Source: Sinimarinibacterium arenosum (GTDB lineage Bacteria > Pseudomonadota > Gammaproteobacteria > Nevskiales > Nevskiaceae). From it: a DNA stretch of 64,000 nucleotides. The stretch lies in the NCBI RefSeq assembly GCF_005047655.1, contig NZ_SUKF01000011.1, positions 1 through 64,000 of the forward strand. Direction: 5' to 3'. Below are positions 1 through 47,164 of this stretch, piece by piece. The translations under genes were made by a program, and so were the position numbers. How positions within the stretch are numbered: the first letter of the stretch is position 1; the number at the start of each line of letters is the position of its first letter. The notes under the pieces are model-generated. The model had not been told where the DNA came from, did no database searches, and was given only the letters and a program-made list of their open reading frames with translations.

Positions 1-61
1 GGCGGGCCTGCTCAACGGCCCCGCGCTTGAACTCTGGACTGAACTTCCTTCGCTTCGACAT
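1..61 (-). CDS. IS3-family transposase OrfA, first 20 codons only
   Basis: Reading leftward from an ATG at 61, the frame gives MSKRRKFSPEFKRGAV and runs off the window edge. This is the usual opening of the small helix-turn-helix OrfA protein of IS3-family elements, which binds the element ends and is joined to OrfB by frameshifting. GGAGTG just before the ATG is a plausible ribosome site. Most of the element lies outside the window, so subgroup and intactness cannot be judged. It marks the left boundary of an accessory region. Confidence 0.75.
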   Translation of the reverse strand, partial: MSKRRKFSPEFKRGAVEQAR

Positions 62-1196: not shown

Positions 1197-1309
1197 TGCG
1201 CTACCTGCATTGAGGCTGGATTAGAAGATGAAGAATGCGCGAGATGTGCGTTTGATCCGCCCGAGCGGCTCCGTGTGCCCGTAACGCAACACGTGCGAAT
1301 GTTGCTCGG

Positions 1310-1654
1310 CTAGGCACGGCGGGTGCGGCCGCACGCATAACACCTGAAGTAGAACCCCCAACGACCTTCCTGAAGCCGGACAGCCCCTCCGCAGTGATGA
1401 CAGGAATCCGCTCGACCCGCACGCCACTGCCATAGCTCGAGGAGCTGACCGAAGGCGAGGATCCCCGACCAGAGCAACAATCCGGCCGGCACGTACGTCG
1501 CCGCCTGATGTGACGCCTCGACCAATGCGCTCATTAAGGGCTGATGAGAAAGCCTGCTCGGGATCCACCATCTGAATACGATGGCGGCGATTGCCGCGCC
1601 CAAGACGAGTAGAGCAGGCGCGGCGAACATTCTGAACACCATGCGGTCGTACAT
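1310..1654 (-). CDS. Small membrane protein with C-terminal zinc ribbon
   Basis: Starting at the ATG at 1654 (AAAGG 8 bases upstream) the product is 114 residues. Hydrophobic segments near residues 9-27 and 50-70 look like two membrane spans. The C-terminal cytosolic tail has CHHC and CYAC about 20 residues apart, a zinc-ribbon arrangement. I do not recognise the family. It begins 11 bases after the stop of the DUF457 gene and is probably co-transcribed with it. A longer frame extends upstream to 1834 but overlaps that gene and is unlikely to be used. Confidence 0.5.
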   Translation of the reverse strand: MYDRMVFRMFAAPALLVLGAAIAAIVFRWWIPSRLSHQPLMSALVEASHQAATYVPAGLLLWSGILAFGQLLELWQWRAGRADSCHHCGGAVRLQEGRWGFYFRCYACGRTRRA

Positions 1655-1665
1655 GCTTCGTGCCT

Positions 1666-2040
1666 TTAGATTGTCAGCCGGCCCATCAACGGGAGCGATC
1701 TTGGCGTTTGGGCGTCCAAGGCCAGGTGGGTGAGGTATGTCAGAACGCCGATGAGGCTGAGGTAGCGTATTGCGCCGTGCGCAGGATCTTGGGGCCGCCA
1801 GAGAAGGAGCCGATGGCCTCCGTGGAGCAGGCAACCGGCAGCCACCCAGCTATGGCAAAACTGGCGATGGTGCGGATGCCACGGTGGCTCAAGCCAGTCC
1901 GGCAGACTCGCGAGCGCCACAGCCAACGCAGCCGACAGAGCAGGCATCGCTGTTGCCCGCCCCGAGCTGCGCTCATAGACGGCCTGTGCAAGTCCGACCG
2001 TCACGGCTGCGGTCAAGGCATGCTCCCTTCTGTTGGACAT
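1666..2040 (-). CDS. DUF457/YdjM-like membrane-bound metal-dependent hydrolase, short
   Basis: The 124-residue product carries LPDWLEP, then a histidine cluster PHHRQFCHSW, two hydrophobic stretches, and DAQTP near the C-terminus. This order (PD, HR..HS, D.xTP) is the signature of the DUF457 family of inner-membrane proteins, which includes E. coli YdjM. Family members are usually longer, about 160-350 residues, so this is a minimal version. Their substrate is not established. It lies 23 bases downstream of the DUF2188 gene and 11 bases upstream of the zinc-ribbon membrane protein, forming a leftward operon. Confidence 0.6.
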   Translation of the reverse strand: MSNRREHALTAAVTVGLAQAVYERSSGRATAMPALSAALAVALASLPDWLEPPWHPHHRQFCHSWVAAGCLLHGGHRLLLWRPQDPAHGAIRYLSLIGVLTYLTHLALDAQTPRSLPLMGRLTI

Positions 2041-2063
2041 GGCCGCGCCTTACGTCGTGGCGC

Positions 2064-2312
2064 TCAGTGTTCCTTATCCTTGGGCGGATGGGGATCGTTG
2101 CCTGGGGCAATTGTGTCCTTGCTGCGGATCAGGTGGTCGCGGCCCATGACCGTCAGCTCACCGCCGCCCTGATTGCGCAGCATCTCCTTGGCCGCCTTCT
2201 CGGCTTCGGCCTGATTGTCGTGACGACTCGACGCGCGTTCGGCGTCGTTGCGCTTGTTGACCCAGTCGCCATCCTTGTCGCGATACACGGTGCGGTCCTG
2301 CGGTTTGCTCAT
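2064..2312 (-). CDS. DUF2188 family small protein
   Basis: This 82-residue hydrophilic protein has the DUF2188 plan: DGDWVNKRNDAERASSRHD, QAEAEKAAKEMLRNQGGGEL and a MGRDHLIRSKDT tail. The family is widespread, small and of unknown function. It often sits near stress or mobile genes. The protein has no signal peptide or membrane segment, so it should be cytosolic. It is the first gene of the leftward group 2312-1310. Confidence 0.7.
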   Translation of the reverse strand: MSKPQDRTVYRDKDGDWVNKRNDAERASSRHDNQAEAEKAAKEMLRNQGGGELTVMGRDHLIRSKDTIAPGNDPHPPKDKEH

Positions 2313-2405
2313 GTGACGCTCCTTGGCTGCAGTCCGGGCAAAGCCCGTTCCGGTTTCCTGAGCTTCCTATGATCCACCCCGGGTGGCTCACCAGATGAGC
2401 CTGGC

Positions 2406-3455
2406 TCAGGCGTCGTATAACGCTCTGGTTTGCAAGAGCTTTTCGTGAACGGATTGCCTAAGCGCCGGCGGGTCCAAGACCTCGACGTCCGGGCCGTACT
2501 TGAGAATGTCCATGATCAGTTCGTCGTCATGGAGATATGGCAAGCGCAAGGTCAGCCTTCCGTCGGCGGCAATCTCGGCCCGTTGTTCGGGATGCCACGT
2601 TTCCTTCGCCACCCAGCGGCTCCGCAGCACCGAGAAACGGAGTACGGCGAGGTTGTCTGGTTGTCCGGAATAGATCCCGTAGCTACTCGCGAGCTCTCGA
2701 TCAAGCGCTTTGTCGGGTACGCTCTTGGCCTTCTTATCCAACAGAGAAGGTTCCTGTATCGCGTCGACTGCGAAGCTGCGAAGTCCACAACGCAAGTGAC
2801 ACCAAGCATCGAGATACCAGTTGTCGCGATAGTGAACCAGTCGCTGTGGCGAGACAGTACGTTCAGTCAGTTCGCCCCTGGCGCGCACTTCATACTTCAG
2901 GTGGATCTGCCTGCGCTTGAGCACGGCATGCGCGAGCAAGCTGAAGCCGGCGAAGTCGACGGCGCGACCGCCCATAGTCAGAATGCGGATTCGACGCCGA
3001 AGCTGTTCGCGATCATCGATCGAATTCTCGAGCAACTTCTCGAGCCGCACTCGAAACGGGGACGTATGCTCGGTGAGCACGCCCGGTTGAATCTGCTGCA
3101 ACATGGATTCGAGAACCAGCAACGCATGCGCCTCGCGTGGACTGAACCAGAGCCCGGGGAGGTTGTAGCGGTCAGCGCCAGCCTGCGCGAAGTCAAATCG
3201 GTACTTGCCCGTACTGCTGTCCCACACGATGGGCGCCCAGAATCGATTGCGCATGTATTCCAGATCGCGCTTGAATGTCGGCAGTGAAATTCCGAGTCGA
3301 TCGAGAAGCGCGTTTCGAGATACCCCCCCGGTTTGAGAGCGCAGTAGTTGGTCGATCAAGTAGAAGCGCTCAACTCGTTCCATCCTGGCCGCTCGCAAAT
3401 TCTGAAGCATTGGGATCTGTCGCTTCGTCCACAACCGCCGCAGCTCGATGATCAT
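2406..3455 (-). CDS. WYL-domain transcriptional regulator
   Basis: The 349-residue product has an N-terminal winged helix-turn-helix (about residues 25-80, with SRNALLDRLGISLPTFKRDL). It is followed by the WYL domain centred on RLVHYRDNWYLDAWCH (about residues 205-225) and the C-terminal WCX extension. WYL regulators sense small ligands or nucleic acids and often control DNA-repair, phage-defence and CRISPR-type loci. The start is uncertain: internal ATGs at 3410 and 3383 would drop a short leader and still keep the helix-turn-helix. Its target is not evident; the leftward accessory genes immediately downstream are candidates. Confidence 0.8.
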   Translation of the reverse strand: MIIELRRLWTKRQIPMLQNLRAARMERVERFYLIDQLLRSQTGGVSRNALLDRLGISLPTFKRDLEYMRNRFWAPIVWDSSTGKYRFDFAQAGADRYNLPGLWFSPREAHALLVLESMLQQIQPGVLTEHTSPFRVRLEKLLENSIDDREQLRRRIRILTMGGRAVDFAGFSLLAHAVLKRRQIHLKYEVRARGELTERTVSPQRLVHYRDNWYLDAWCHLRCGLRSFAVDAIQEPSLLDKKAKSVPDKALDRELASSYGIYSGQPDNLAVLRFSVLRSRWVAKETWHPEQRAEIAADGRLTLRLPYLHDDELIMDILKYGPDVEVLDPPALRQSVHEKLLQTRALYDA

Positions 3456-13276: not shown

Positions 13277-14461
13277 GTGGGCGCCGGCGACGATGCGCGG
13301 GCTGTGGCGGTCGCCGTAGAATTCGGTATGCGGGACCGTTCGGAAGACCCTATGCGCGCGATCGCCGGCTTTGCGCACGCGGCGATGCTGCCGGTGACCC
13401 TGATGCTGTGCGCGATGATCGCGCTGGGCAGTCTCGCGCTCGATCTGACGACGCCGCGCGGTGTCGCGGACGGCATGCTCTACGTTGCGCTCGTGCTGCC
13501 GAGCCTGTGGCTGCCATGGCGCGGCGCACCGTTCGCGCTGGCGGCGCTGGGCACCGCGCTGACCGCGATGGGTTACTGGGGTTCGCCGCCGGGCGCCGAA
13601 CAGTGGATCGTGCTGACCAACCGCACGATGGCGCTGGCGATCGTGTGGCTGACTGCGGTGTTGTGCTATCTCCATAAGGGCGCGTTGATGCGGCTGCGCA
13701 ACGACGAAGGCGAGGCCGAGCGCAGGATCCAGGAGCTGCAGGCGAATCTCTATCACATCGCTCGCCGCGGCGAGCTGGGCGAGATGGTCAGCGCGATCGC
13801 CCATGAGCTCAACCAGCCGCTCACGGCAGTCTGCAATTACGTCGCCGCGGCGCGCCGCCTGCTGCCGCCGCCGGAGCAGGGTGGCAGCTGCGAGGCTGTC
13901 GAGCTGATGGCGAAGGTGACCGAGCAGGCGAACCGCGCCGCGCAAGTGCCGCGCCAGGTGCTGCGGATGATGAAGGCGGGCTCTACTGAGCGTACTGCGG
14001 ATGACCTCAATGCGGCGGTCGAGGAAGTCGCGGCGTTTGCGCTGATCGGCAGCCGGCAGCTGGGCATCCATGCCACGCTCGATCTGGCGGCCGATCTGCC
14101 GCCATGCCTGATGAATCGCACGCAGGTGCAGCAGGTGCTGCTCAACCTGGCCCGCAACGCCATTGAAGCCGTCCACGGCTGCGCACGGCGCGACCTGTCG
14201 ATCCGCACCGCGCGGGCGGGCGACGGCTCTCTGGAAGTCGCCGTAGCCGACAGCGGCGACGGGCTCGCGAAGGAGGTTCAGGAGCGCCTGTTCATGCCGT
14301 TCGTCACGACCAAGCCCAATGGCAGCGGCATCGGCTTGTGCGTCGCGCACACGATTGTCGGCGCGCACGGCGGCCGGCTGTGGGCCGAGGCCAACCCGGG
14401 CGGCGGCACGGTGTTCCGCTTCACGTTGCCGGCGGCGGTGTCCCGGAAGCTGGCGGGCTGA
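13277..14461 (+). CDS. Membrane sensor histidine kinase (orphan)
   Basis: The GTG at 13277 follows the preceding stop directly; a shorter start at 13328 is possible. The 394-residue product has about four hydrophobic segments in residues 30-135 and a short linker helix. The H box is AIAHELNQPLTAV and the ATPase domain contains NLARNAIEAV (N box), VADSGDGL (G1) and GSGIGL (G2). The H box is of the FixL/NtrB-like NQPL type. No PAS domain or adjacent response regulator is present. Co-location with the flavoprotein and ThDP enzyme suggests it senses the state of that pathway. Its last 41 bases overlap the convergent decarboxylase gene. Confidence 0.8.
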   Translation: MGAGDDARAVAVAVEFGMRDRSEDPMRAIAGFAHAAMLPVTLMLCAMIALGSLALDLTTPRGVADGMLYVALVLPSLWLPWRGAPFALAALGTALTAMGYWGSPPGAEQWIVLTNRTMALAIVWLTAVLCYLHKGALMRLRNDEGEAERRIQELQANLYHIARRGELGEMVSAIAHELNQPLTAVCNYVAAARRLLPPPEQGGSCEAVELMAKVTEQANRAAQVPRQVLRMMKAGSTERTADDLNAAVEEVAAFALIGSRQLGIHATLDLAADLPPCLMNRTQVQQVLLNLARNAIEAVHGCARRDLSIRTARAGDGSLEVAVADSGDGLAKEVQERLFMPFVTTKPNGSGIGLCVAHTIVGAHGGRLWAEANPGGGTVFRFTLPAAVSRKLAG

Positions 14462-16460
14462 CGCCGCCGCGCAGTTCGCTGCGGATCAGGCCGGCGAGGT
14501 AATCGCAGTACAGGTCCAGGTAGTTCGTACCGGCGGGCGCGTCGCGCAGCCACGGGTTCATCAGCGTATGGCGCAGGATCAGCATGCTGTCGGCCGAACG
14601 CTCGTCGACGCCCGGGCGGTCGCAGAATGTGGCCGGATCGATGCCCAGCGCCGACAGGATGCGCTGGCTGTCGGTCCCGCCGAGCGCGGCGCGTGACAGG
14701 CGCGTGGACGAACCGAAGAACTGTCGCGTCTGCACCGGCTGCTGGCGATCCACCTTGAGATGGCCGTAGATCCGCTCCGTGAAGTCGTTCATGCGCGCCA
14801 GCGAGCTGTTGCCGAGCGGGTTGATCGCGATGCAGACCAGATTGCTGTCCGGCTCGAACGGCAGGATCAGGCGCGCCACGTCGGCGACGGCGTCGGCAAG
14901 CGTCCGCACGCGGTCGAAGAAGTACTCAGTGGCGAGCAGAGATTCGCGCTGCAGGCGCCCGAAATGGCGATGGTCGAGCGGCAGAGTGCGGTGCGTGACG
15001 TAAACCGCGGCGGCGGCGGCGCCGGACTTGGAGCCTTCGAGAATGTATCGGCCCAGCGCGCGGAACCGGGCGCGCGGATCGTGGGCAGTCGGCGCCGCGG
15101 GAGCGGAGAACGCATACGGCGCGTCCTGCGCGACGAAATCGAACACGCGGTGGTCGCGGCACACCAGCGCGCCCGCTCCGTAAGGCAGATAGCCCAGCTT
15201 GTGCGGATCGACGGTGACGCTGTCGGCGTCGCCCAGCGCGGCGAAGGCGTCGTAGACCTCGTGCGAAGGGAAGTAGCGGAAGTCCGCGCGCACCTGTTCG
15301 TGGCTGCGCAGCGAACCGTCCTCGGCGCGGAAGATGCTCGCCAGGTACCCGCCCCAGGCGGCATCGATGTGGATGCCGAAGTTCAGGCCGCGCGCCTGCC
15401 AGTGTTGCCGCGCTGCGACGATGCGATGGATCGGGTCGATCGTGCCGAACTCGGTTGTGCCGAGCACACCGACGACGCACAGCACCGGCCGCTGCTCAAA
15501 GTGCGCCCGCGCCAGTGCCGCGTCCAGCGCGGCTGGATCGAGACGCATGCCGCGTGTGGCAATGCGCCACAGGTTCGCAGTGCCCAGGCCCAGCAGCTTC
15601 ATCGCCTTGTCCCAGGAGTAATGCGCCGTGACCGGCACGATCACGACCGGCGGAAGACATTTCGGGTGGCGTGCGCAGAATTCGGCGACGCCCAGCGTCT
15701 CGATGCGCTCGGCCTCGATCGCCTGCGCCAGTGCCTCCGCCCGAGACCGGTCGGCGTCGGCGGCCAGATGCGTCTCACAGGCGGCGCGCAGCGCGATCGC
15801 CTGGTCCAGCGGCAAGTTGAACAGCGCCCAGTCGTCGAGCGCGCTCAGCGGCCGGTCGCCGCAGTCGAAGTCGCAGCCGCAGCGCTGCGCGGCCGCGCGC
15901 ACCGCGAGCGGGAAGAAGCGAACCGCGCGCAGCAGCCACAGCGACTCGTAGTTTGCGACGCTGCCACCGGAAGTCAGGTGGCCGAAGGCACTGGGGCACC
16001 GCGTCTCGTCGGCGGGCATGCCGAGCATGCGTGCGAGCTGCAGGCCGGCGTCGATCTCCATGTCGACGGTGACCGGCGCCGCCTCGTCGACGACGTTGTT
16101 CGGGTTGTAGGGCAGCGCCGTCATCTGGGCGATCAGGCCCGGCAGCAGCAGATCCGAGGCCATGTGGCCGATGTAGCGCGGGCTGGAGAACGGCACCGAG
16201 TGTTTCAGCGCCGCGCTCAGCAGGTGCAGTTCGCGGCGCATGCGCGCCATGAAGTCGCGGTATTCCGCGGAGTCGGCGGCACAAGTCGAGATCGGCGGCG
16301 GGTCTTCCGGGTGGAAGTTGCGTCGCCAATAAATGTGGTCGCGCAGGAACTCGATCAGGATTCTCTCGAAGGCGTCGTCATTTTCGCCGTAAGAGCCGAG
16401 GAACAGCGGTGCGAGGAAGTCGCGTGCCCCGCGCGCTGGATCAGGGTTGGATTCGTTCAC
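14421..16460 (-). CDS. PLP-dependent group II amino-acid decarboxylase
   Basis: The GTG at 16460 was chosen because GGAG lies 8 bases upstream; the product is 679 residues. Group II decarboxylase features are present: the YNPNNVVDEAAP substrate-pocket region, HLTSGGSVANYES, HIDAAWGGY before the cofactor aspartate region, and SVTVDPHKLGYLPYGAGAL with the Schiff-base lysine. Its length is nearer to bacterial tyrosine/aromatic decarboxylases than to glutamate decarboxylase; substrate is unproven. It follows the DGC-domain gene after 26 bases, in the same unit, under the FNR box at 16950. Aromatic amine formation under anoxia is one possible role. Confidence 0.75.
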   Translation of the reverse strand: MNESNPDPARGARDFLAPLFLGSYGENDDAFERILIEFLRDHIYWRRNFHPEDPPPISTCAADSAEYRDFMARMRRELHLLSAALKHSVPFSSPRYIGHMASDLLLPGLIAQMTALPYNPNNVVDEAAPVTVDMEIDAGLQLARMLGMPADETRCPSAFGHLTSGGSVANYESLWLLRAVRFFPLAVRAAAQRCGCDFDCGDRPLSALDDWALFNLPLDQAIALRAACETHLAADADRSRAEALAQAIEAERIETLGVAEFCARHPKCLPPVVIVPVTAHYSWDKAMKLLGLGTANLWRIATRGMRLDPAALDAALARAHFEQRPVLCVVGVLGTTEFGTIDPIHRIVAARQHWQARGLNFGIHIDAAWGGYLASIFRAEDGSLRSHEQVRADFRYFPSHEVYDAFAALGDADSVTVDPHKLGYLPYGAGALVCRDHRVFDFVAQDAPYAFSAPAAPTAHDPRARFRALGRYILEGSKSGAAAAAVYVTHRTLPLDHRHFGRLQRESLLATEYFFDRVRTLADAVADVARLILPFEPDSNLVCIAINPLGNSSLARMNDFTERIYGHLKVDRQQPVQTRQFFGSSTRLSRAALGGTDSQRILSALGIDPATFCDRPGVDERSADSMLILRHTLMNPWLRDAPAGTNYLDLYCDYLAGLIRSELRGGVSPPASGTPPPAT

Positions 16461-16486
16461 CGGCGCAGCTCCGTTCACACAGGCGC

Positions 16487-16861
16487 CTACAGACGACGGA
16501 TCAAGCCGCCCATGTCGAAGTCCTGCGCGATCTCGCCGTACTTGCGGAAGCCGAGCTCGTGGAGCTTGATGTGCCGACCGATTGCGTGTCCGTTTCGTGC
16601 AAAAACCCCAGCGCCGCACTCGATCGGACAGCCGTCGATCACCCAGGTGGTGCGCCGCGCGACCTCTTTGACGAATGCGGGCTTCAATGCACCCAAGCCG
16701 GCGAGGCACGACATCTCGGCGATGCCGCGGCGATCGAGTTCGCGTGCGAGGTCGTAGCTCAGGCGCGCGACGTGGGAGCAGCCGGCACAGGCAAACACCA
16801 GGGGTTTTGCGGCGCTTTCGCCCGTCCTGGAGGCCGTGGCGTTTGAATGTGTGTCCAACAT
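16487..16861 (-). CDS. DGC-domain putative zinc-binding protein
   Basis: The 124-residue product contains CAGCSHVARLSYDLARELD, EMSCLAGLGA and DGCPIECG, the conserved cysteine motifs of the DGC family, named for the Asp-Gly-Cys triad. Members are predicted to bind zinc or another metal and often occur beside redox or metal genes. No membrane segment is present. It is the first gene of the leftward unit; TATGGT at 16923-16928 lies 30 bp from the FNR box centre at 16956, a good class II -10. Confidence 0.75.
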   Translation of the reverse strand: MLDTHSNATASRTGESAAKPLVFACAGCSHVARLSYDLARELDRRGIAEMSCLAGLGALKPAFVKEVARRTTWVIDGCPIECGAGVFARNGHAIGRHIKLHELGFRKYGEIAQDFDMGGLIRRL

Positions 16862-22490: not shown

Positions 22491-23764
22491 ATGGATGATG
22501 CAGTCATACCGGGTGCGGCACTGCGCGTCGATCTTCCGGCGCGCGGTCTCGAAGGACCGCTGTCGCACGCGCAGACTGCGCTGGCGGACGTCGCGCACCG
22601 CTTCGCCCACGGTGTGATGCGGCCGGCGGCGGCGCAGCTCGACCGCCTGGCGCCGGATGCCGTCATTGCCGCCGGCTCGCCGTACTGGACGGTGCTGCAG
22701 CAGTTCGCCGCCTTCGGCATCGACGCGCTGACGCTGCACGAACTGCCGCCCGAAGAAGGGGCGGAGCTGCAGAGCATCCTGTTCGAAGAGTTGGGTTGGG
22801 GGGACGCGGGCCTGGCGGTGTCGTTCGGTGCCGGCATGCTGCCGTCGGTGGTTGCGCTGCTGCTGAACCGACCGGAGTTCGCGCAGCGCTGGCGCGGCAA
22901 GGGGCTCGGTGCGTGGGGCATCACCGAGCCGGACCACGGCACCGACATGCTCGACTACGACGGCGCGCTCTCTGCGGCGGGTGGGGTGTCACGCCGGCCC
23001 AACTGCGTCGCCGCCGCCGACGGCGGCGAGCTGGTGATCCGCGGCCAGAAATCGGCGTGGGTGTCCAACGGCCCGGTGGCGACACATTGCATCCTGTTCT
23101 GCGGATACGAGGAAGGCGGCGCCGTCCGTGGCGGCTGCGTGCTGATGGTGCCGCTCGATGCGCCGGGCGTGTCGCGCGGCAAGCCGCTCGACAAGCTCGG
23201 CCAGCGTGCGCTGCCGCAGGGCGAGATCTACTTCGACGACGTCCGGGTCGCGCGCGATTGCCTGGTTGCCGGGCCGGACGACTATGCGCGCGCCGTGTAC
23301 CTGACGCTCGCGCACGCCAACGCCGGCATGGGCGCGGCGTTTGTCGGCGTCGCGCGGGCGGCCTACGAGCATGCGTTCGCCTACGTGCACGAGCGCCGCC
23401 AGGGCGGCGCGCCGCTGATCCGCCATCAGAACGTCCGCTACGCCTGTTCCACATGTTTCGCAAGATCGAGGCGGCGCGCGCGCTCAATCGCAGTGCGATG
23501 CGCTACAACGCGCTGCACGCGGGCCGTCCCGCGCTGCAGGGCTCCATCGCCAGCAAGATCACGTCGACGCAGACCGCGTTCGAAGTCGCCAGCGAGGCGC
23601 TGCAGATCTTCGGCGGCGCCGGGTTGGCGCGCGAGTTTCCGCTGGAGAAGCTGCTGCGCGATGCGCGCGCCGCGCTGATCGAGGACGGTTGCAACGAAGC
23701 GCTGGCGATCAAGGGCGGCGCCTGCCTGATGAACCCCATCCTGCTCAACGAGGCACGGCCATGA
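22491..23764 (+). pseudogene. Acyl-CoA dehydrogenase with a one-base frameshift
   Basis: Frame 1 (from 22491) encodes a standard acyl-CoA dehydrogenase up to PLIRHQNVRYA: WGITEPDHGTD flavin loop, GQKSAWVSNGP, LGQRALPQGEIYFDDVRV. Near 23441-23446 the homologous sequence jumps to the -1 frame, continuing LFHMFRKIEAARALNRS through LQIFGGAGLAREFPLEKLLRDARAALIEDG, and stops at 23764. GCCTG where GCCCTG is expected would restore one 424-codon frame. Either the gene is inactivated or a base was missed in the sequence. The tail stop overlaps the next ATG, so the operon structure is preserved. If corrected it is an FAD acyl-CoA dehydrogenase; substrate unknown. Confidence 0.85.
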
Positions 23765-24561
23765 ACGCTGAAGGCGCACGCAAGTCGGCGAACCGCTACT
23801 CGCATCCATTTCTCGCGGCAACGCCGCAGGTCGAGGCGCACTGCTCGGCCGGGCGCTGCGACATGCCGATCCTGTACGAGGACGCCAGCCAGGTGTTTGC
23901 GTTCTGGCGCGTGCCGCTCGCGGACGCGGCGGCGCTGATGCCGGACGGGCGGCTGGAACCGATGCCGGTCTTCGGCAAGGCGATCGCCGGCTTCGTCGCA
24001 TTCGAATACCGCGACACCAGCGCCGGCGCTTACAACGAGATCGGACTGGTGATCCTGGTGCGGCGCCGCCAGACGTCGCCGTCGCTGTGGCGGCTGCTGC
24101 GCCATCCGGAGCGGGAACCCGATGCCGGCTTCTACGTCGTCAACCTGCCGGTGACCACGCCGCTGGCGCGCGCCGCCGGCGTCGAGTTCTGGGGCTACCC
24201 CAAATACGTGAAGCCGATTCCCACGCACTTCGCGCGCGAGTCGGTTCACATCGAGCTGGATGGCGAACTGACGTTCGACCATCGTAGCGGCCACGGCGTC
24301 GGTGTCGACGCGTTCACGGTGACGACGTTCTCCATCCTCAAGGGCAAGCTCATACACACCGTGATCCCGACGCACGGCCGCTTGCGGTTCGGCGGCGCCG
24401 GGTCGGTCGTGCTGAAGATCACCGGCGATGGCCCGGCCGCGCGCACAGTGCAGGCGCTGGGCATGGATCGCAGCAGGCCGCTCGCGGTGTTCCGCAACGA
24501 TGCCTTGCGCGTAATCCTGCCGTACGGAGAAGCGGTGGCTGAGCCGAAGCGGTCCCGTTGA
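23761..24561 (+). CDS. Acetoacetate decarboxylase superfamily protein
   Basis: The 266-residue product matches the ADC fold: NEIGLVILV, GFYVVNLPVTTPLARAAGVE and FWGYPKYVK, where the lysine after YP is at the Schiff-base position of acetoacetate decarboxylase. The superfamily also contains aldolase-dehydratases and cyclases, so decarboxylation is not assured. It overlaps the dehydrogenase by ATGA and the glycyl-radical gene by TTGA, so all three are coupled. It is probably cytosolic. Confidence 0.72.
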   Translation: MNAEGARKSANRYSHPFLAATPQVEAHCSAGRCDMPILYEDASQVFAFWRVPLADAAALMPDGRLEPMPVFGKAIAGFVAFEYRDTSAGAYNEIGLVILVRRRQTSPSLWRLLRHPEREPDAGFYVVNLPVTTPLARAAGVEFWGYPKYVKPIPTHFARESVHIELDGELTFDHRSGHGVGVDAFTVTTFSILKGKLIHTVIPTHGRLRFGGAGSVVLKITGDGPAARTVQALGMDRSRPLAVFRNDALRVILPYGEAVAEPKRSR

Positions 24562-27500
24562 ACCGCTTCGAGCCCGCGCCGACTGAATCGCGCAGTAGCC
24601 GGGGCGCGCGGAGCGGACGTCTGCGCGTGTTCGACGTGCAGCGCTTCTGTGTGCACGACGGCCCCGGTATACGCTCGGTTGTGTTCCTGAAGGGTTGTCC
24701 TCTGCGTTGCCGCTGGTGCCACAACCCGGAGTCACAGCTGCCGCAGGCGGAGCTGGCGATCTACGCAGACCGCTGCACCGGGTGCGGTCGTTGCGTCGAC
24801 GCCTGCGACCGAAGCGCAATCACGGTGTCGGCGGCATCGGTGCAGGTCGATCGCGAAAAGTGCGACGCGTGCGGCGCCTGCGCGAAAGTGTGCCCGCACG
24901 AGGCGCTGCGCCTGATCGGCGAGGAGGTCCGTCCGGACGAGCTACTCGAACAGGTGGAGCGCGACCGCGACTACTGCGAGTCCTCCGGCGGCGGCGTCAC
25001 GCTGTCGGGCGGCGAGCCGCTGATGCAGGAACATGCCGCCGCAGAGTTCCTCGCGCGCTGCAGGGCTGCCGGCCTGCACACCTTGGTCGAGACCTGCGGC
25101 GCGGTGCCGTGGCGGGCCTTCGAAGGCGCGCTGCCGCACGTCGACCGGATCTACTTCGACCTCAAGGCCTGGGGCGACGCGCGCCACCGCGAGCTGACCG
25201 GCGCGTCGGCGCGCCGCATCCTCGATAACGCCCGACGCCTGGTGAGCGCGGGCGCCCACGTGCAATTCCGCATGGCGGTGGTGCCCGGCTGCAATGACGA
25301 CGACGACACCCTGCGCGGCATCGCCGGTCTGCTGCGCGATCTCGACCGGCCGTCGATCACTCTGTTGCGCTATCACCGGACCGGCGAGGACAAGATCGCG
25401 CGCATTGGCGGCGGGCAACCGAGTCTGGGAATCCTGCCGGCTCAGGCGCAGGCGGCACTCGACCGCGCCGCCAGCCTGTTGCGCGTCGCCGGCATCGAGG
25501 TCGAATGTGCCGAGGCCCGGCCGGCCGCGTACTCATCGCGGTTCGGCGAACGCGTGATGCGTCTGCGCGCCGCAGTGCAGACGGCGCAGCCCGCCGTGTG
25601 CCTGGAGCGCGCCCGCGCGGTCACGCGCTATTTCCGCGACCACGGCAACGCGGACAAGCCGATGATCATGCAGAAGGCTGAAGCGCTGCACCGGATTCTC
25701 ACAGAACGCAGCGCCATCGTATACGACGACGAGCTGCTGGTCGGCGCGTTCAGTTCGCATCGCGTCGGCGGTTCGGTGATGCCGGAACTGTCGCACGTGT
25801 CTCTGGCCGAGGACTTGCTGCGCCTGCCGTCGCGCGCGGTCAATCCGCTGCAGATCACGCTGCGCGGGCGTGCCGAGCTTCTGCTGGAGATCCTGCCCTT
25901 CTGGTCCACGCGCTTTCTCGCTGCGCGCGCCTTCCCGCCGCTGCAGGCCGCGCGCTTCGTCGTCGACCAGCTGCGCGGCCGCCGCTACGTGGTCAACGAA
26001 GCGGGCGGCATCTCGCACTTTGTGCCGGACTATGAAACCTTGCTGCGGCTCGGCACGTCCGGCATCGCGGCACAGGCGCGCGAACGTGCAACCGCCGCGC
26101 CGGACGCGGCACGGCGCGAGTTCTACGCCGCCGTCGGAATCGCCTGCGACGCGCTGGAACGGCTCGCTGCCGCCCACGCGGGCGCCGCACTCGACGAGGC
26201 GCGCCGCACGTCCGACGCGACAAGACGCGCAGAGTTGGAGGAGATCGCCCGGGTCTGCCGTCGCGTGCCCGCTCAACCGGCGACGACGCTGCGCGAGGCG
26301 TTCCAGTCGCTGCTGTTCGCGCAGGTCGCCTTGAACCTGGAAAGCCTCGACAACGCGATCTCGCCGGGCCGCCTCGATCAGCTTCTGTATCCGTACTACG
26401 CGGCAGATCTTGCTTCCGGATGCTGCGACGAGACGCGGGCGCGCGAGCTGGTCGGCTGCTTCACGGTCAAGATGAGCGAGATCGTGCCGGTGTTCTCGCG
26501 CCGTGTGACGCGCTATCACGGCGGCATCTTCAACGGCCAGGTGGTCGTCGTTGGAGGTGTCGACAGGGAGGGCAACGACGCCACCAACGCGATGACCTGG
26601 CTGTTTCTGGACGCGATGCAGGAGCTGCAGATGCGCCAGCCGAACTACCACGCGCGTATCCACGAGGGCAGTCCGCCCGCCTATGTCGCGCGTGTCGCGG
26701 CGATGCGCGCGGGTGCGCCGTCAATGATGAACGACGAGGTCGTGATCCCGATGCTAGTGTCGCGCGGCATGGACCTTGCCGATGCGCGCGACTACTCGCC
26801 GGTCGGCTGCATCGAGCCGGTCGCCGCCGGCGCGACCTTCGGCTCCACCGACGCCGCGCTGCTCAACCTCGCACTGCCGCTGGAGCGGGCGCTGCGCCGG
26901 CCGGCGCGGCGGCTGGGGAGTGCCGAAGACGTGTTCGATGCGTTCCGCGAGGAACTGGATCGGCTGGTCGACGAGCTGATCGCCGACCTGCAGGCAATCG
27001 AGCGCGCGAACGCGCGCCATCATCCGACGCCGCTGTCGTCGATGCTGTTGCGCGGCTGCCTGGAGTCGGGCGCCGACTCCACTGCAGGTGGTGCGCGTTA
27101 TAACGCCAGCGGCGTGCAGGGCGTCGGCGTCGCCGACGTCGCCGACAGTCTCGCCGCGATCGACGCGGTGGTGTTCCGGCAGGGCCGCAGCGACATGGCC
27201 ACGCTGCAACGTGCGCTGGCCGCGGATTTCCGGGGCCACGACGATCTGCGCGGCGACCTGCTGACCGCACCCAAGTACGGCAACGACGATCCGCGCGTCG
27301 ACGAAATCGCGGCCAGCGTGATGCGGGTGTTCGCCGATTCTCTGGCGCGCCACCACAGCACGCGCGGCGGCGCGTATGTCGCCGGTTTCTACTCAGTGAC
27401 CTGTCATGCCGCCTTCGGTGAAACCACTGGAGCATTGCCGTCGGGACGCCGCGCCGGACGGCCGCTGGCCAACGGTCTGACGCCGGCCAACGGCCAGGAC

Positions 27501-27842
27501 CGTCGCGGTCCGACCGCCGCGCTCAACTCGGTCGCGTCGACCTCGCCGGGGCGCTGCGCGGGCAACGGCATCAACGTGAATCTGACGCTCGACGCGGGTT
27601 CATTCGACGGCGCCGATGCCGGGAACACGCTGGGCGGACTGGTGCGCGGTTACTTCGCGCGCGGTGGCATGCAGATGCAGACCAACATCCTCGATCCACA
27701 AGTGCTGCGCGAAGCCATCGCCAATCCCGACGCGCATCCGTGGCTATTGGTGCGCGTCTCGGGCTACTCGGCGTACTTCAGTGACCTCTCGCCAGGCATG
27801 AAGCAGGAAATCCTCGATCGTTGCCTGCACCGGAGGTGCTGA
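24558..27842 (+). CDS. Single-chain fusion: glycyl-radical-enzyme activase plus glycyl radical enzyme
   Basis: One uninterrupted 1094-codon frame. Residues 1-320 are a complete activase: GPGIRSVVFLKGCPLRCRWC with the radical-SAM C47-x3-C51-x2-C54, two ferredoxin-type Fe-S motifs (CTGCGRCVDAC 73-83; CDACGACAKVC 102-112), and GGEP (151-154) for S-adenosylmethionine. Residues 330-1094 are a complete glycyl radical enzyme: MRLRAAVQTAQPAVCLERAR start, PVGCIEP with thiyl C751 and E753, and RVSGYS with radical glycine 1069. The GCxE site resembles dehydratase/lyase members rather than pyruvate formate-lyase, which has Cys-Cys. Translation starts at TTG 24558, coupled to the preceding stop. An internal ATG at 25557 (M334) could start a separate enzyme but has no clear ribosome site. 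The substrate is unknown. FNR control and oxygen-sensitive chemistry agree. Confidence 0.9.
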   Translation: MNRFEPAPTESRSSRGARSGRLRVFDVQRFCVHDGPGIRSVVFLKGCPLRCRWCHNPESQLPQAELAIYADRCTGCGRCVDACDRSAITVSAASVQVDREKCDACGACAKVCPHEALRLIGEEVRPDELLEQVERDRDYCESSGGGVTLSGGEPLMQEHAAAEFLARCRAAGLHTLVETCGAVPWRAFEGALPHVDRIYFDLKAWGDARHRELTGASARRILDNARRLVSAGAHVQFRMAVVPGCNDDDDTLRGIAGLLRDLDRPSITLLRYHRTGEDKIARIGGGQPSLGILPAQAQAALDRAASLLRVAGIEVECAEARPAAYSSRFGERVMRLRAAVQTAQPAVCLERARAVTRYFRDHGNADKPMIMQKAEALHRILTERSAIVYDDELLVGAFSSHRVGGSVMPELSHVSLAEDLLRLPSRAVNPLQITLRGRAELLLEILPFWSTRFLAARAFPPLQAARFVVDQLRGRRYVVNEAGGISHFVPDYETLLRLGTSGIAAQARERATAAPDAARREFYAAVGIACDALERLAAAHAGAALDEARRTSDATRRAELEEIARVCRRVPAQPATTLREAFQSLLFAQVALNLESLDNAISPGRLDQLLYPYYAADLASGCCDETRARELVGCFTVKMSEIVPVFSRRVTRYHGGIFNGQVVVVGGVDREGNDATNAMTWLFLDAMQELQMRQPNYHARIHEGSPPAYVARVAAMRAGAPSMMNDEVVIPMLVSRGMDLADARDYSPVGCIEPVAAGATFGSTDAALLNLALPLERALRRPARRLGSAEDVFDAFREELDRLVDELIADLQAIERANARHHPTPLSSMLLRGCLESGADSTAGGARYNASGVQGVGVADVADSLAAIDAVVFRQGRSDMATLQRALAADFRGHDDLRGDLLTAPKYGNDDPRVDEIAASVMRVFADSLARHHSTRGGAYVAGFYSVTCHAAFGETTGALPSGRRAGRPLANGLTPANGQDRRGPTAALNSVASTSPGRCAGNGINVNLTLDAGSFDGADAGNTLGGLVRGYFARGGMQMQTNILDPQVLREAIANPDAHPWLLVRVSGYSAYFSDLSPGMKQEILDRCLHRRC

Positions 27843-41927: not shown

Positions 41928-44834
41928 CTAACCGCAGTTACCAACATGGCCGCACGCCGTGCAGGCATCGCAGCCGTCGCGCTTGATCACTGCGTAGGCG
42001 CCGCAGTCGGGGCAGCGGCGGCCAGCAATGGCGGTCGCGGCGCCTTCGCGTCGCATCGCACACGCCGGCGCTTCGAGCACCCCCATCGGCCGCGTCGGCC
42101 GGCCTTCCGCGTCGAGCAGCCCGAGCATCTGGTAGCGGTGCAGGATCAGCCGTGCGAGGTAGGCGATGGTCGACGGCCAGGTCTGCGACTTGGCACTGCC
42201 CGGCGTCGGCGCGAAGAAGTCGCCCAGCGGTTCCGCATACGACAGCAGCTTGCGCAGCTTGGCGCCGATCCAGGCGACGTCGATGATGCGCATGTCCAGG
42301 GTCAGCAGGCGCGCGAGGCCGTCGAAGTCGCGCGGGTAGTCGCCGGCGAGCCAGACGCTGTACGGGCGGCGTGAGCCGTCGGGCAGCAGCAGCTCCTTAA
42401 GCGTCAGCACGAAGTCGTCGCCGGTGCCGGGATTGCACACGTCCACGGTCCACGACATCGTACCGTCGGTGCTGGTCTTGGGTTCGTGTTCGCTCATCAG
42501 CGCATTGAGCACCGGAGTCGGACCGTCGTGCGCGAACGCGCCGAGCTGTTCGCAGCGCAGGCGCACGAGCTTGGCGAACGCGGCGGTTGGGCTGCCGAGC
42601 ACGACTTCGCGTCCGTCGGGCGGTAATGCGACGCGGATCAACTGACCGCCGGTGCACTCGAGCGAATCGAGTTTGCGGCGCAGCCAGGCTCGGTCGTTCG
42701 AGCGCATGTCCATCGACAGCAGCTTGGCGGTCGCGCCCAGGCCGCGCGGTTGTTCGGCGCCGTTGACCCAGGCCTCGAACGGCCAGGCCGTGCCGTTCTC
42801 GGTGTGGCCTACGAACACTGCGAAACGCACGCCGCCGTCCTCAATCATGTAGGTCCAAGACGGATTGCCGGTAAGCAGCTGCGGCCGGCCTGGCCAGCGC
42901 AGGCTCGCCAGCGCCGGCGCCGGCACCTGGTCCAGGCGCACGCGGCGATCGGGGTCGTCGGCCGCGAGCTGCGCCGGCTTGGCAGCGGGTTCAGGTGCGA
43001 CCGTCAGAACCGCGCCTGTCACGTCGTTTGGGCGGTAGGTCGTGCAGCCTTTGCACCCGAGCGTCCAGGCTTCGATGTATACGTTCTCGAAGTCGGCGAA
43101 GGGATAGTCGACCGGAACGCCGATCGTCTTGCTGATGCTGGTGTCGATATATGGTTGCACCGCGGCCTGAATGCGCAGGTGATCGGCCACGCCCAGCGTC
43201 TGCGCGGAGACGAAATAGTCGGGCAGATGTTCCACATCGCCGCCCAGTTCCCGGTACAGGCGATAGGCATAGTCCTCGACCGGCCAGCTGATCTTCTCGC
43301 CGCTTCCGCTGCGTGCCGTGCGCGTGTAATACCAGGCGAAGGCCGGCTCGATGCCGCCGGTGACGTTGCGGCCGAAGGCCAGCGAGATCGTGCCGGTCGG
43401 CGCGATCGCCAGCAGGTGGCTGTTGCGGATGCCGTGCGTGTGGATACCGTCGCGGATGTCGTCCGGCAACCGGCGCGCGAAGCCGGACTGCAGATACGCT
43501 TCGGCATCGAGCCGCGGGAAACGACCGCGCTCCTGCGCCAGCGCGATGCTGGCGCGGTATGCGGCGTCGCGCATCGTCTGCGCGACGCGTTCGGCAAAGG
43601 CCACGGCCTCGTCCGAGCCGTAGCGCAGCCGCAGCATCGCCATCGCCGTGCCCAGCGCGGTGAAGCCCAGGCCGACGCGACGCTTGTCGGCCGCTTCGCG
43701 GGCCTGCTGTGGCAGCGGCCAGTAGGTGATGTCGAGCACGTTGTCGAGCATTCGCACGGCCACAGCGACGGTGGCTTCGAGCTTCTCCCAGTCGAGCTGC
43801 GCGCCGGCGCTGAACGCGTCCTGCACGTAGCGGCTGAGATTGACTGAACCCAGGCAGCAGCAGCCGTAATCGGGCAGGGGCTCTTCGCCGCAGGGGTTGG
43901 TCGCTTCGATGGTTTCGCAGTAGTGCAGGTTGTTGTCGGCGTTCATGCGGTCGATGAACACCACGCCCGGATCGGCGGTGTGGTAGGTGGTCTCCATGAT
44001 CCGCCGGAACAACTCGCGTGCCGGCAGTACGCGGTAAACCCAGCGGCCGTCACTGTCGCGGCGGTATGCCTGCGGGTGCACTGTCGGATCGGGCTCGGCG
44101 TCGTGCACCAGCGCATGCTCGCCGTCGTCGATCACCGCCTGCATGAAGGCGTCCGTGCAGGCGACGGACAGGTTGAAGTTCGACAGCGTGCGCAGTCGCT
44201 GCTGCAGGCCGTCCAGATCCGCCCCGGCGACGCCACCGCTGCGCAGCTTCTGTGCCTCGGCGCGGATGTCCTTCGCAGCGACGAATTCCTCGATGTCGGG
44301 ATGGTCACAGCGCAGGATGCCCATCTGCGCGCCGCGTCGTGCACCGGCGCTTTCGACCGTCTCGCAGGACCGGTCGAACACGCGCATGTAGCTGACCGGT
44401 CCGCTGGCGCGCGAACGCGTGCCGCGCACGCGCGCGCCCTTGGGTCGGATGTGGCTGAAGTCGTACCCGACGCCGCCGCCGCGGCGCAGCGTCTCCGCGG
44501 CCTGCATCAGCGCCGCGTAGATGCCCGGACGTCCGGACGCGTCCTCGGACACCGCGTCGCCGACCGGTTGCACGAAGCAGTTGATCAGCGTTGCCTGGAT
44601 GTCGGTGCCGCAGGCCGACATCACGCGGCCGGCGGGGCAGAAGCCGTCCTGCATTGCCTGCAGGAAGCGCGCCTCCCAATCCGCGCGCGCGTCGGCGCGC
44701 TCGGCCGCAGCAAGGCCGTGTGCGACACGGCGGAACACGTCGTCGACCGTCGCCTCGTCGGCCTTGCAGTACTTGTCCTTGAGTACGCTGTCGTAGAAAA
44801 CTTCCTGCATGGACCACAGCTTGTTGGTCGTCAT
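41928..44834 (-). CDS. nrdJ: Adenosylcobalamin-dependent (class II) ribonucleotide reductase
   Basis: The ATG at 44834 follows AGGGGGCAAG, and the product is 968 residues. The catalytic segment NPCGEEPLPDYGCCCLGSVNL has the thiyl Cys-x-Glu. GGGVGYDFSHIRPKGARVRG and AIAPTGTISLAFGRNVTGG are standard class II words, and the C-terminal CPDCGAY and CDACTACGH form the zinc/thiol tail. It reduces ribonucleotides using vitamin B12, without needing O2. The perfect FNR box 110 bp upstream with TAGGAT at class II spacing indicates anaerobic induction, when the O2-dependent class I enzyme would fail. Confidence 0.95.
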   Translation of the reverse strand: MTTNKLWSMQEVFYDSVLKDKYCKADEATVDDVFRRVAHGLAAAERADARADWEARFLQAMQDGFCPAGRVMSACGTDIQATLINCFVQPVGDAVSEDASGRPGIYAALMQAAETLRRGGGVGYDFSHIRPKGARVRGTRSRASGPVSYMRVFDRSCETVESAGARRGAQMGILRCDHPDIEEFVAAKDIRAEAQKLRSGGVAGADLDGLQQRLRTLSNFNLSVACTDAFMQAVIDDGEHALVHDAEPDPTVHPQAYRRDSDGRWVYRVLPARELFRRIMETTYHTADPGVVFIDRMNADNNLHYCETIEATNPCGEEPLPDYGCCCLGSVNLSRYVQDAFSAGAQLDWEKLEATVAVAVRMLDNVLDITYWPLPQQAREAADKRRVGLGFTALGTAMAMLRLRYGSDEAVAFAERVAQTMRDAAYRASIALAQERGRFPRLDAEAYLQSGFARRLPDDIRDGIHTHGIRNSHLLAIAPTGTISLAFGRNVTGGIEPAFAWYYTRTARSGSGEKISWPVEDYAYRLYRELGGDVEHLPDYFVSAQTLGVADHLRIQAAVQPYIDTSISKTIGVPVDYPFADFENVYIEAWTLGCKGCTTYRPNDVTGAVLTVAPEPAAKPAQLAADDPDRRVRLDQVPAPALASLRWPGRPQLLTGNPSWTYMIEDGGVRFAVFVGHTENGTAWPFEAWVNGAEQPRGLGATAKLLSMDMRSNDRAWLRRKLDSLECTGGQLIRVALPPDGREVVLGSPTAAFAKLVRLRCEQLGAFAHDGPTPVLNALMSEHEPKTSTDGTMSWTVDVCNPGTGDDFVLTLKELLLPDGSRRPYSVWLAGDYPRDFDGLARLLTLDMRIIDVAWIGAKLRKLLSYAEPLGDFFAPTPGSAKSQTWPSTIAYLARLILHRYQMLGLLDAEGRPTRPMGVLEAPACAMRREGAATAIAGRRCPDCGAYAVIKRDGCDACTACGHVGNCG

Positions 44835-44941
44835 CTTGCCCCCTGCCCGGTGCGCGTCGAGATTAAAGACAGCCAAAATCACATGATGTTGTGTCTCGGC
44901 CGCGGTATAGATACATCCTATTGGGTCCCGCCCAAACGCCT

Positions 44942-44955
44942 TTGATTTAAATCAA
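44942..44955. promoter_or_regulatory. FNR box, perfect consensus, between nrdJ and DUF1302 gene
   Basis: TTGATTTAAATCAA, a fully symmetrical 14-mer. TAGGAT (44920-44915) suits nrdJ; a weaker GATGAT lies on the other side. Confidence 0.87.
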
Positions 44956-45013
44956 GAGGCTGTCCGGCGCACTGCCAGATGATGGATTTCACTAACATCT
45001 GGGCCTAAGTGGC

Positions 45014-47164
45014 ATGAGCGGAAGCCGGGGGTGCAGCGGCGAGAGGCAGGGCCGCGCTCGCGAGATTGTGCGGGCGCTGGCTCTGATTCCAGGACTGGTT
45101 TCGATACCGGTCCACGCGTCACCTGACGCTCCGGGGTGGACGCTGTCCATGCATCACCGCGTGTCGGCTGGCGCGGCGTGGCGAACCGCGGCGCGTGATC
45201 CCTCTCTGATCGGCAAGGCCAGCCTCGATCCGGACCTGTGCGCTGCAGACGACTGCCTGGGGGCGACGGGCGCCGATACCGCGCCCAACGCGCGTTATCT
45301 CGCCGCGCGCGGCGCGCTGTCATCCAACACCGACGACGGCGACCTCAACTTCGAGCGCGGCGACGCGGTCGCCGCCACGACGAAGTGGCAGGTCGAGGCG
45401 CTGGCCGAGCACGGCTCGTGGAGCATGCAGCTCTCGGGGCTGGCTTTCTATGACCCGCTTCGGGACCGGTTGCGGCAATTCCATCCTAACGAGATCGTCG
45501 TGCCCGGCCCGCAGCCAGGCGTGCCGCTGCGCCAGCGTCGCGGCCTGCAGGCGCGGCGCGCGGAAGGACATGGCGTACGGCTCCAGGACGCCTATGTGCG
45601 TTACGCGGACCTGCTCGCCGACGTCATCCCGGTGGACATCAGTGTCGGCCGGCAGACCGTGTTGTGGGGCGTCAGCGCGCTGGCGACGCAGGGCACGCTC
45701 AATGTCGTCAACCCGCCCGACGTCAACAGCCTCGTGCGCCCGGGATTGCGGATGACCGAAGTGTTCCAGCCGCTGGGCATGACGCTGCTGCGTCTGGGAC
45801 CGTTGCCCTCGGGCACTGCGGTCGAGGCCTTCCAGCTGTACGAGTGGCGGCCCTACGGCTTTCCGGCGAAAGGCTCGCTGCAGTCGTTTCTCGACGCCGG
45901 CAACGAAGTCGACGAGGACGACCACGTCGTCGGCCTGTTCTCGAAGGCGCCCGACGATCCGGGCCAGCTCGGCACGCCGGCGAATCCGCTGCTGGCGCGC
46001 GTGTCGGCGACCAGCTACTCGCTGCGGCGCGCTGCCAACCGCGAGCCGCGCAGCGGCGGGGAATTCGGCTTGGCCGTCTACCAGACGCTGCCGGACGTGC
46101 TCGAAGGCGCCGAGCTGGGCCTGCACTATGCGCGCTATCACAGCCGCGTTCCGGCGCTGTCGGCCTACGCGGCGCCGGCAAGCTGCACGCGCCGCGAGGG
46201 CAATGCCAACCACCGCGATACCGCGAGCGGCCTGCAGTTCCTCGCCGACTGCGGCGTGCCCTTTGTCGACCCGCCGGGCGACGGGTTCGAGGCGCTGCCG
46301 ATCGACGGCGCGCGCTGGTTTCTCGAATACCCGGAGGACGTCGAGCTCTACGGCCTGTCGCTTGGCGCACAGGCCGGCGCGTGGCTGCTGCAGGCCGAAG
46401 CGGCGTGGCGGCCAAACCAGCCGGTGCAGGTCGACATGGAAGACGTGCTGTTCGCCGCCGTGCAGCCAGCGTTCCCGCGGGCAGACGTCGATCTGACCAG
46501 CCTCGCAGCGGGGCTCGGACTCGGCGCGTTCGTGCTGCCGTCGTCGCGCCGCGCCGCGCCGGACTTCCTGACCGCCCATCGCGGTGGCGTGCCGGGCGAG
46601 ATTGCGCCGGGCGAATACGTTCGCGGCTACGAACGTCTGCGCATGCTGAATACGACCCTGGGCGCGACGCGCATCTTTGCGCCGGAGGATTGGCTGCGCG
46701 CACATCAGGGTGCGTGGATTGCCGAGCTGCAGGCGGTGTGGCTGCCGGATCTGCCGTCGCTGGACCGCCTCCAGTTGGAGGGCCCGGGAACGCATACGCA
46801 TGCCTCCGCGGGCGCCGCCGACAGCGGCGACGGGCTGCGCATCAATCCGCTGCGCAACACCGGCGGTTACGTCACGCGCCACGCTTGGGGCTATCGCACC
46901 GGCGTGGTGCTGCAGTACGACGACCTGCTGCACAGCCGTGTGCGCCTGTCGCCGGCACTGTTTCTGGTCCACGACGTCTCCGGCGTCGGTCCCGGTCTTG
47001 CGGAGAATTTTCTGGCCGGACGCAAGATCGGCTTCGCAGCGCTGGGCATCGCGCGCGGTTCCTGGCGGCTGGACGTGGGCCAGCTGGTCCACATCGGCGG
47101 CACCCGGCGCAACGTGCTGCGTGACCGTGACCAGTTTTCCCTGTCCTTATCGGTGGAGTTCTGA
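45014..47164 (+). CDS. DUF1302 family outer-membrane protein
   Basis: The 716-residue product has an N-terminal export signal (RALALIPGLVSIPVHA). It then has repeated amphipathic beta strands with SVGRQTVLWGVSALATQGTLNVVNPPDVNSL, the most conserved DUF1302 block, and ends with aromatic FSLSLSVEF, the usual outer-membrane barrel terminus. DUF1302 proteins often accompany DUF1329 lipoproteins and pathways for hydrophobic substrates. A DUF1329 gene is absent here; instead two unknown envelope proteins follow, overlapping the stop. Confidence 0.78.
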   Translation: MSGSRGCSGERQGRAREIVRALALIPGLVSIPVHASPDAPGWTLSMHHRVSAGAAWRTAARDPSLIGKASLDPDLCAADDCLGATGADTAPNARYLAARGALSSNTDDGDLNFERGDAVAATTKWQVEALAEHGSWSMQLSGLAFYDPLRDRLRQFHPNEIVVPGPQPGVPLRQRRGLQARRAEGHGVRLQDAYVRYADLLADVIPVDISVGRQTVLWGVSALATQGTLNVVNPPDVNSLVRPGLRMTEVFQPLGMTLLRLGPLPSGTAVEAFQLYEWRPYGFPAKGSLQSFLDAGNEVDEDDHVVGLFSKAPDDPGQLGTPANPLLARVSATSYSLRRAANREPRSGGEFGLAVYQTLPDVLEGAELGLHYARYHSRVPALSAYAAPASCTRREGNANHRDTASGLQFLADCGVPFVDPPGDGFEALPIDGARWFLEYPEDVELYGLSLGAQAGAWLLQAEAAWRPNQPVQVDMEDVLFAAVQPAFPRADVDLTSLAAGLGLGAFVLPSSRRAAPDFLTAHRGGVPGEIAPGEYVRGYERLRMLNTTLGATRIFAPEDWLRAHQGAWIAELQAVWLPDLPSLDRLQLEGPGTHTHASAGAADSGDGLRINPLRNTGGYVTRHAWGYRTGVVLQYDDLLHSRVRLSPALFLVHDVSGVGPGLAENFLAGRKIGFAALGIARGSWRLDVGQLVHIGGTRRNVLRDRDQFSLSLSVEF

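Follow-up and report, generated by a model that had tools for sequence, protein, structure and literature searches.

A bacterial reading frame joining a predicted activating enzyme to a PFL2-like glycyl radical enzyme

The fused gene

A stretch of 64,000 nucleotides from the gammaproteobacterium Sinimarinibacterium arenosum (assembly GCF_005047655.1, contig NZ_SUKF01000011.1, positions 1 to 64,000; hereafter, the window) contains a gene in which a radical-SAM activating enzyme (activase) and a glycyl radical enzyme (GRE) share one reading frame. The product is probably a single-polypeptide, self-activating PFL2-like GRE, made under low oxygen in what is likely to be a nitrate-respiring bacterium. 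The activation of GREs is normally an encounter of two proteins, in which the approach of the glycine loop to the active site of the activase is difficult to observe. Feature coordinates are reported in Table 1.

Both halves are recognized by family searches. In Pfam, the protein matches Radical_SAM (residues 42–249, 3.8e-17), Fer4, PFL-like (331–954, 9e-158) and Gly_radical (971–1074, 1.1e-21); in NCBIfam, the GRE-activating family TIGR02494 scores 300.7 bits over residues 24–287, above its cut-off of 174.35, and the CxxxCxxC motif is also present. As judged from the sequence, these domain and motif matches are far beyond chance. The original prediction, made on the letters of the window, had described a 1094-codon frame holding both enzymes, each near full length, with radical-SAM cysteines C47, C51 and C54, two ferredoxin motifs, a GGEP motif, C751/E753 and the radical glycine G1069: all of these motifs were located at those positions, GGEP being at residue 151, and the near full length of the halves is borne out by the Pfam and NCBIfam matches and by the structural model described below.

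The GRE half features a PFL-like barrel, a C-terminal Gly_radical domain, C751, and G1069 within an RVxGY motif, as expected of a PFL-like GRE, and is the only such enzyme in its genome, where NrdD (PF13597) was not found. The family TIGR01774 (PFL2/glycerol dehydratase) scores 576.8 bits over residues 331–1092, below its cut-off of 678.2, so that membership is not assigned. Among the best 25 of 71 families, four equivalogs likewise stay below their cut-offs: choline lyase scores 429.1 of 1050 bits, HypD 398.9 of 1100, sulfopropanediol dehydratase 428.5 of 1000 and indoleacetate decarboxylase 249.5 of 1100.

Activase homology stops near residue 316 and GRE homology begins at residue 331, with the frame unchanged, leaving a linker of 13–14 residues. 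Within codons 320–345, where the original prediction had said that a stop or frameshift would undo the fusion, the fusion frame contains no stop, and neither codon usage nor homology gives a sign of a frameshift. A codon-usage frame test, trained on 42 other open reading frames of the window, prefers the fused frame before, within and after the linker; in the 17-codon linker the margin is modest (2.1 log units). As a control, 772 of 893 windows of the same size, taken from the training frames, were assigned the correct frame. The test also flags a frame change near 23437, in the acyl-CoA dehydrogenase gene lying upstream: it can therefore detect frame errors, and such errors do occur in this region.

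Table 1. Features of the fused gene and of its cluster. All positions refer to the window.
Feature	Position	Strand	Basis or remark
Fused activase-GRE gene	24558..27842	+	1094 residues; TTG start, TTGA shared with upstream stop
Activase half, residues 24-317	24627..25508	+	TIGR02494 match 24-287; last modelled strand ends at 317
Radical-SAM motif CPLRCRWC, residues 47-54	24696..24719	+	Motif
First ferredoxin-type motif CTGCGRCVDAC, residues 73-83	24774..24806	+	Motif
Second ferredoxin-type motif CDACGACAKVC, residues 102-112	24861..24893	+	Motif
Junction and linker, residues 317-330	25506..25547	+	Homology limits; model pLDDT below 50 at 320-326
GRE half, residues 331-1094	25548..27839	+	Pfam PFL-like and Gly_radical; fold matches
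V333 (GTG) and M334 (ATG), possible internal starts	25554..25559	+	Shine-Dalgarno at background
GCIEP, catalytic Cys751 and Glu753	26805..26819	+	Motif, starts at residue 750
RVSGYSAYF, radical Gly1069	27753..27779	+	Motif, starts at residue 1066
Acetoacetate-decarboxylase-family (ADC) gene	23761..24561	+	266 residues from ATG; Pfam ADC 3.2e-12; stop overlaps fusion start
Acyl-CoA dehydrogenase gene	22491..23764	+	Frameshifted near 23437; shifted frame ends at TGA 23762-23764, overlapping next ATG
FNR-like box TTGACATACATCAA	22414..22427	+	One mismatch

Predicted structure and active site

An AlphaFold2 model of the fusion was built from a 60-row alignment made up of the window protein, 3 other fusions, GREs (29 of 78 rows) and activases (27 of 74 rows). 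Mean pLDDT is 85.3 and pTM 0.75; stretches below a pLDDT of 50 are residues 1–18, 31–38, 320–326 (the linker), 399–418, 423–432 and 453–465. In the model, then, each half is close to its full length and most of it is folded with confidence. The 50 structures listed by Foldseek are all GREs, so that the fold evidence covers the GRE half, which matches glycerol dehydratase (1r8w) with TMt 0.89 and the PFL2 of Archaeoglobus fulgidus (2f3o) with TMt 0.91.

The latter is the best solved relative also by sequence (6e-135). It shares the Cys-x-Glu, Asp and His residues and lies at the base of the larger group containing the window in a 117-row GRE tree (support 96), but it is a 776-residue chain without an activase, and has Gln in place of Asn599. 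The B12-independent glycerol and 1,2-propanediol dehydratases (1r8w, 5i2a/5i2g, 9rco-9rcq) have the same fold (TMt 0.83–0.89) and the same catalytic core: Cys433, Glu435, Asp447, His164 and Gly763 of 1r8w are kept in the fusion as C751, E753, D765, H487 and G1069, and the catalytic residues are kept as well in the unfused sisters and in the clade of fused proteins described below. They differ in two positions, Asn599 taking the place of His281, and Gly660 that of the 1r8w Tyr339, which is Phe in the propanediol enzymes, so that the active-site pair of the dehydratases is missing; Asn in the His281 column is common to the window protein, three unfused sisters and ten fused rows. The 1r8w residues compared, His281 and Tyr/Phe339 included, belong to the active site. 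Since the core residues are kept while two dehydratase residues are replaced, the enzyme appears to be a GRE of the eliminase or lyase type, not a glycerol or propanediol dehydratase. The dehydratases also form a separate clade in the 117-row tree.

Distribution of the fusion

A scan of contigs, from which the best 80 of at least 532 relatives were kept, found activase and GRE in one frame at three loci, L010 to L012, titled Myxococcota or Myxococcales. Of 377 genomes drawn from the phylum of the L010 genome (Myxococcota), 57 have a match at 1e-60; a subset of these matches was checked, and the resulting count is thus a lower bound: at least 10 of the 377 genomes carry an activase-GRE fusion, in the same order and in one frame. 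Eight are complete, while two (G094 and G337) are cut at contig ends; besides L010-L012, the others are G280, G251, G294, G173 and G100. No X occurs in any of the ten fused frames. The search for further proteins with both domains, suggested in the original prediction, was therefore fruitful, and recurrence in at least ten genomes looks like a real, little-noticed variant rather than a sequencing slip.

These fusions share with the window protein the N-terminal position of the activase and the spacing at the junction, which is identical in 11 out of 11 fused proteins: 63 residues separate the same Leu of the last activase motif from the RV of the GRE. Either a single origin or a geometric need could explain this constancy. 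The activases differ: in the eight complete Myxococcota-phylum fusions the ferredoxin insert is missing and no ferredoxin-type motif is present, as against two in the window.

Three unfused GREs are the closest relatives of the window's. In two of them, L122 (= L092) and L093, activase and GRE are two genes, the activase TGA overlapping the GRE ATG in a four-base ATGA, with the GRE in another frame; in the third, L121 (= L091), a GRE is present, and no activase was seen within 14 kb. Three of 369 sampled genomes of the class, the window's among them, have a match at 1e-60; the GREs of the other two show 34% identity, and one of these genomes has a separate activase match close by. A plasmid collection gave 13 matching records at 1e-60, and in the three examined activase and GRE are annotated as separate genes.

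Some candidates were rejected. G183 and G088:C58 seemed fused in a listing of open frames, but stop-split frames show separate genes. L128 (= L097, G272; 1-3012, minus strand) features the reverse order, GRE then activase, in one contig-cut frame; it is not counted as established, because its GRE end differs from that of its sisters and a one-base error (frameshift) could produce it.

Other arrangements were also observed. In L093 (84-1006) the activase is split across two frames. In L014-L020, a single stop separates an activase frame from a GRE frame in register with it, partly a selection effect, as the search ranking favours such pairs. Loci L139 and L140 (8953-12328), from Acinetobacter towneri and Moraxella osloensis, are plasmid-borne GRE and activase pairs, with a GRE about 40% identical to that of the window, located close to transposase genes (Tn3 and others) and to genes for a beta-propeller protein and a carboxymuconolactone decarboxylase family member.

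Phylogeny of the two halves

The 117-row GRE tree omits L002-L009 (weak), 16 duplicate, nested or own-genome loci, and GRE matches covering fewer than 560 query residues; a more careful tree was made from 37 of its rows. For the activase, a quick tree was built from 39 rows of selected loci, and a careful one from seven rows fewer, over 213 columns. A tree of the joined halves has 30 rows: L121, having no activase, and L133 and L134, whose activase is cut off, are not included, and 9 of the 11 fusions are.

On the GRE half, the placement in the family tree that had been proposed as a check puts the window with unfused enzymes. In the 37-row tree, it groups with L121, L122 and L093 (97/93), while the ten other fusions form a clade of their own (100/100); in the 117-row tree, the fusion label needs two changes. 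For the activase half, in contrast, both trees place the window together with the fusions, the quick one at 98 and the careful one at 94/87, although on the careful data the alternative grouping of window, L122 and L093 is not rejected (p-AU 0.365). A clade uniting the fusions has a p-AU of 0.089 on the GRE half (all 11) and of 0.128 on the joined halves (9 of the 11); in both cases the best tree separates the window from the fused clade. In the best tree of the joined halves, window, L122 and L093 are together at 97/94, with the fused clade alongside at 82/64.

From these trees, a single fusion that later split, or two fusions, are possible; three independent fusions were considered and dropped, because the activase and GRE trees disagree. 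The likely ancestor of the fusion is a pair of genes, activase and GRE, that adjoined at their ends. Codon 317 of the window gene is TGT, roughly where the activases of two close relatives stop with TGA; as the GRE of L122 and L093 is also in a different frame, the two states are more than one base apart.

This comparison bears on a further explanation, namely that a recent stop loss or a sequence error joined what is, or lately was, a pair of genes, the fusion being functionally uninformative. The TGT codon, the frameshifted dehydrogenase gene in the same cluster and the unfused state of the nearest relatives all fit with it. Yet a single base change would not be sufficient to join the L122 or L093 genes, codon usage is frame-consistent across the junction (modestly so in the linker), and the junction spacing equals that of ten other fusions: we regard this explanation as improbable.

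One product or two

Several findings weigh against a single self-activating polypeptide. The closest relatives, 50–53% identical in the GRE half, are two proteins, so that fusion is not required for the GRE to function. None of the 84 other genomes searched in the window's order matches at 1e-30, the gene that opens the cluster carries a frameshift in the assembly, and comparison of the flanks of GRE loci found no conserved neighbour indicating a substrate. Finally, two in-frame codons close to the start of the GRE, V333 (GTG) and M334 (ATG), could initiate translation, and a GTG is found at the equivalent Val of the RV motif in four of the ten other fusions (L124, L010, L011 and L012).

The last point suggests the main rival, an internal restart at GTG333 or ATG334. 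The gene would then give two products, the fusion and a free GRE, with one activase domain serving several GREs. The GREs of the sisters L092/L122 and L093 have, accordingly, their own ATG overlapping the activase stop. On the other side, six of the ten other fusions have no start codon at that Val, and in two of the ten (L134 and L123) there is no start codon up to 10 codons away from where the GRE starts. Anti-Shine-Dalgarno energies are close to the background median of -4.0, being -4.9 for ATG334 and -4.7 for GTG333; the TTG start of the fusion is no better (-4.0). On balance a restart seems unlikely, if deserving serious attention, and a single self-activating polypeptide is the reading followed below.

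In such a polypeptide, the activase half would cleave S-adenosylmethionine on its [4Fe-4S] cluster, with the two ferredoxin-type clusters as the entry point for electrons. A hydrogen would be taken from Gly1069 as the glycine loop swings out, either from the same chain or from that of the dimer partner. Cys751 would next receive the radical and, together with Glu753, Asp765 and His487, run an eliminase- or lyase-type reaction. The fusion would guarantee a 1:1 supply of activase at high local concentration.

More broadly, and tentatively, the fused proteins may form a bacterial class of self-activating GREs, where the attached activase charges its own glycine or that of the dimer partner. The invariant junction spacing would reflect docking in one fixed geometry, and the arrangement would have persisted across a Myxococcota-phylum clade and be present as well in a bacterium that is distant and probably respires nitrate. 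Insulation from other GRE pairs was rejected as the whole reason for fusion, the window's genome having one PFL-like GRE; the genomes of L010-L012 hold further GRE matches.

As a natural covalent pair, the protein offers a system with the ratio set at 1:1, suited to structural work and to studies of cis versus trans and half-site activation; it could show whether the activase must leave before turnover, and it provides a one-gene format for GRE use in other hosts.

The joining of a GRE and a radical-SAM activase in one frame is already known from eukaryotes: PMC3019208 describes NrdDG, in which a class III ribonucleotide reductase and its activase are fused, as a single open reading frame, and PMC4967989 and PMC4390871 also refer to fused NrdD-NrdG in eukaryotes. 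The statement in the original prediction that no fused pair had been described was thus too strong for GREs at large. NrdDG differs from the window fusion in family (NrdD) and in the order of its name, NrdD-NrdG; the window protein has its activase at the N-terminus and no NrdD domain. No natural bacterial fusion of the PFL2 type was found in the open-licence literature, a scope that leaves subscription journals mostly outside; this bacterial PFL2-type form is what appears to be new here. On the whole, the observation behind the original prediction is confirmed and its interpretation partly supported.

The gene cluster

The fusion is the third gene of a coupled set: dehydrogenase and ADC genes overlap by ATGA, when the shifted frame of the former is considered, and ADC and fusion genes by TTGA. 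The dehydrogenase is not intact as assembled, a defect unremarked in the original prediction; its frameshift may reflect either cluster decay (a pseudogene) or an assembly error. In the first case, the fusion might lie in a decaying or silent cluster and no active enzyme would be made, as both the frameshift and the sporadic presence of the fusion could suggest. The catalytic and cluster residues checked are, on the contrary, intact over 1094 open codons, and a long-dead gene of such length would usually carry a stop; an inactive fusion in a decaying or silent cluster is, in our opinion, distinctly improbable.

The proposal that dehydrogenase and ADC are linked to the GRE under an FNR promoter was only in part sustained: an FNR-like box precedes the set (Table 1), but the gene link is not conserved. 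Neither a dehydrogenase nor an ADC gene was found beside the GRE in any of the best 80 scanned loci or of the further GRE loci among 140 analyzed by tblastn, many of which have short flanks. At 1e-4, the tblastn comparison with the 140 loci gave UbiD for L147, both dehydrogenase and ADC for L143 and L144, AidB for L036, and nothing else. When nine window genes around the fusion were compared with the open reading frames of the loci, the AidB-like match in L036 was the only one outside the window. An all-against-all comparison of the flanks of 20 selected loci, in which rough gene calls missed the ADC, found only the GRE family shared with the window, and the Pfam matches of ten flanking proteins (from L121, L122, L125 and L131) show no common theme.

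Dehydrogenase/ADC pairs in the same order, 30–36% identical to those of the window, are present in L143 and L144, two related genomes coming from an ADC search, and again within the window's genome, in L145, where its second ADC copy lies. The stretches containing these pairs, 3.7–3.8 kb long, include no GRE: the pair is therefore a module of its own, independent of the GRE, and the association of the two would, so far, be seen only in the window. L143, L144 and L145 thus represent an uncharacterised two-gene dehydrogenase/ADC module. Within genus, family and order, ADC relatives are found at 1e-8 in 3 of 21 genomes, including the window's; the outside matches are 38% and 32% identical, and the second copy in the window's genome 35%. 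The adjacent UbiD is matched at 1e-100 in 2 of 13 genomes, again including the window's.

The anaerobic setting

The window contains 14 FNR-like boxes, being matches to TTGATNNNNATCAA with at most one mismatch, against 0.47 expected, spread from 16950 to 58428. NarG, UbiU, NrdJ, NarK family, UbiT and UbiD proteins score above their family cut-offs, while Fnr- and NarX-type proteins score below. UbiD and UbiT point to a proteobacterial host. From these matches, the region is probably devoted to anaerobic, nitrate respiration and the host is probably nitrate-respiring; FNR-type control of the fusion cluster is plausible.

Two other loci of the window feature FNR-like boxes. A gene for the B12-dependent ribonucleotide reductase NrdJ is located at 41931-45014, with a perfect box (44942-44955) between NrdJ and a divergent gene. 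A tyrosine-decarboxylase-like protein, scoring far under its family cut-off, is encoded at 14424-16709; boxes at 16950 and 17002 lie between its gene and the Fnr-like gene.

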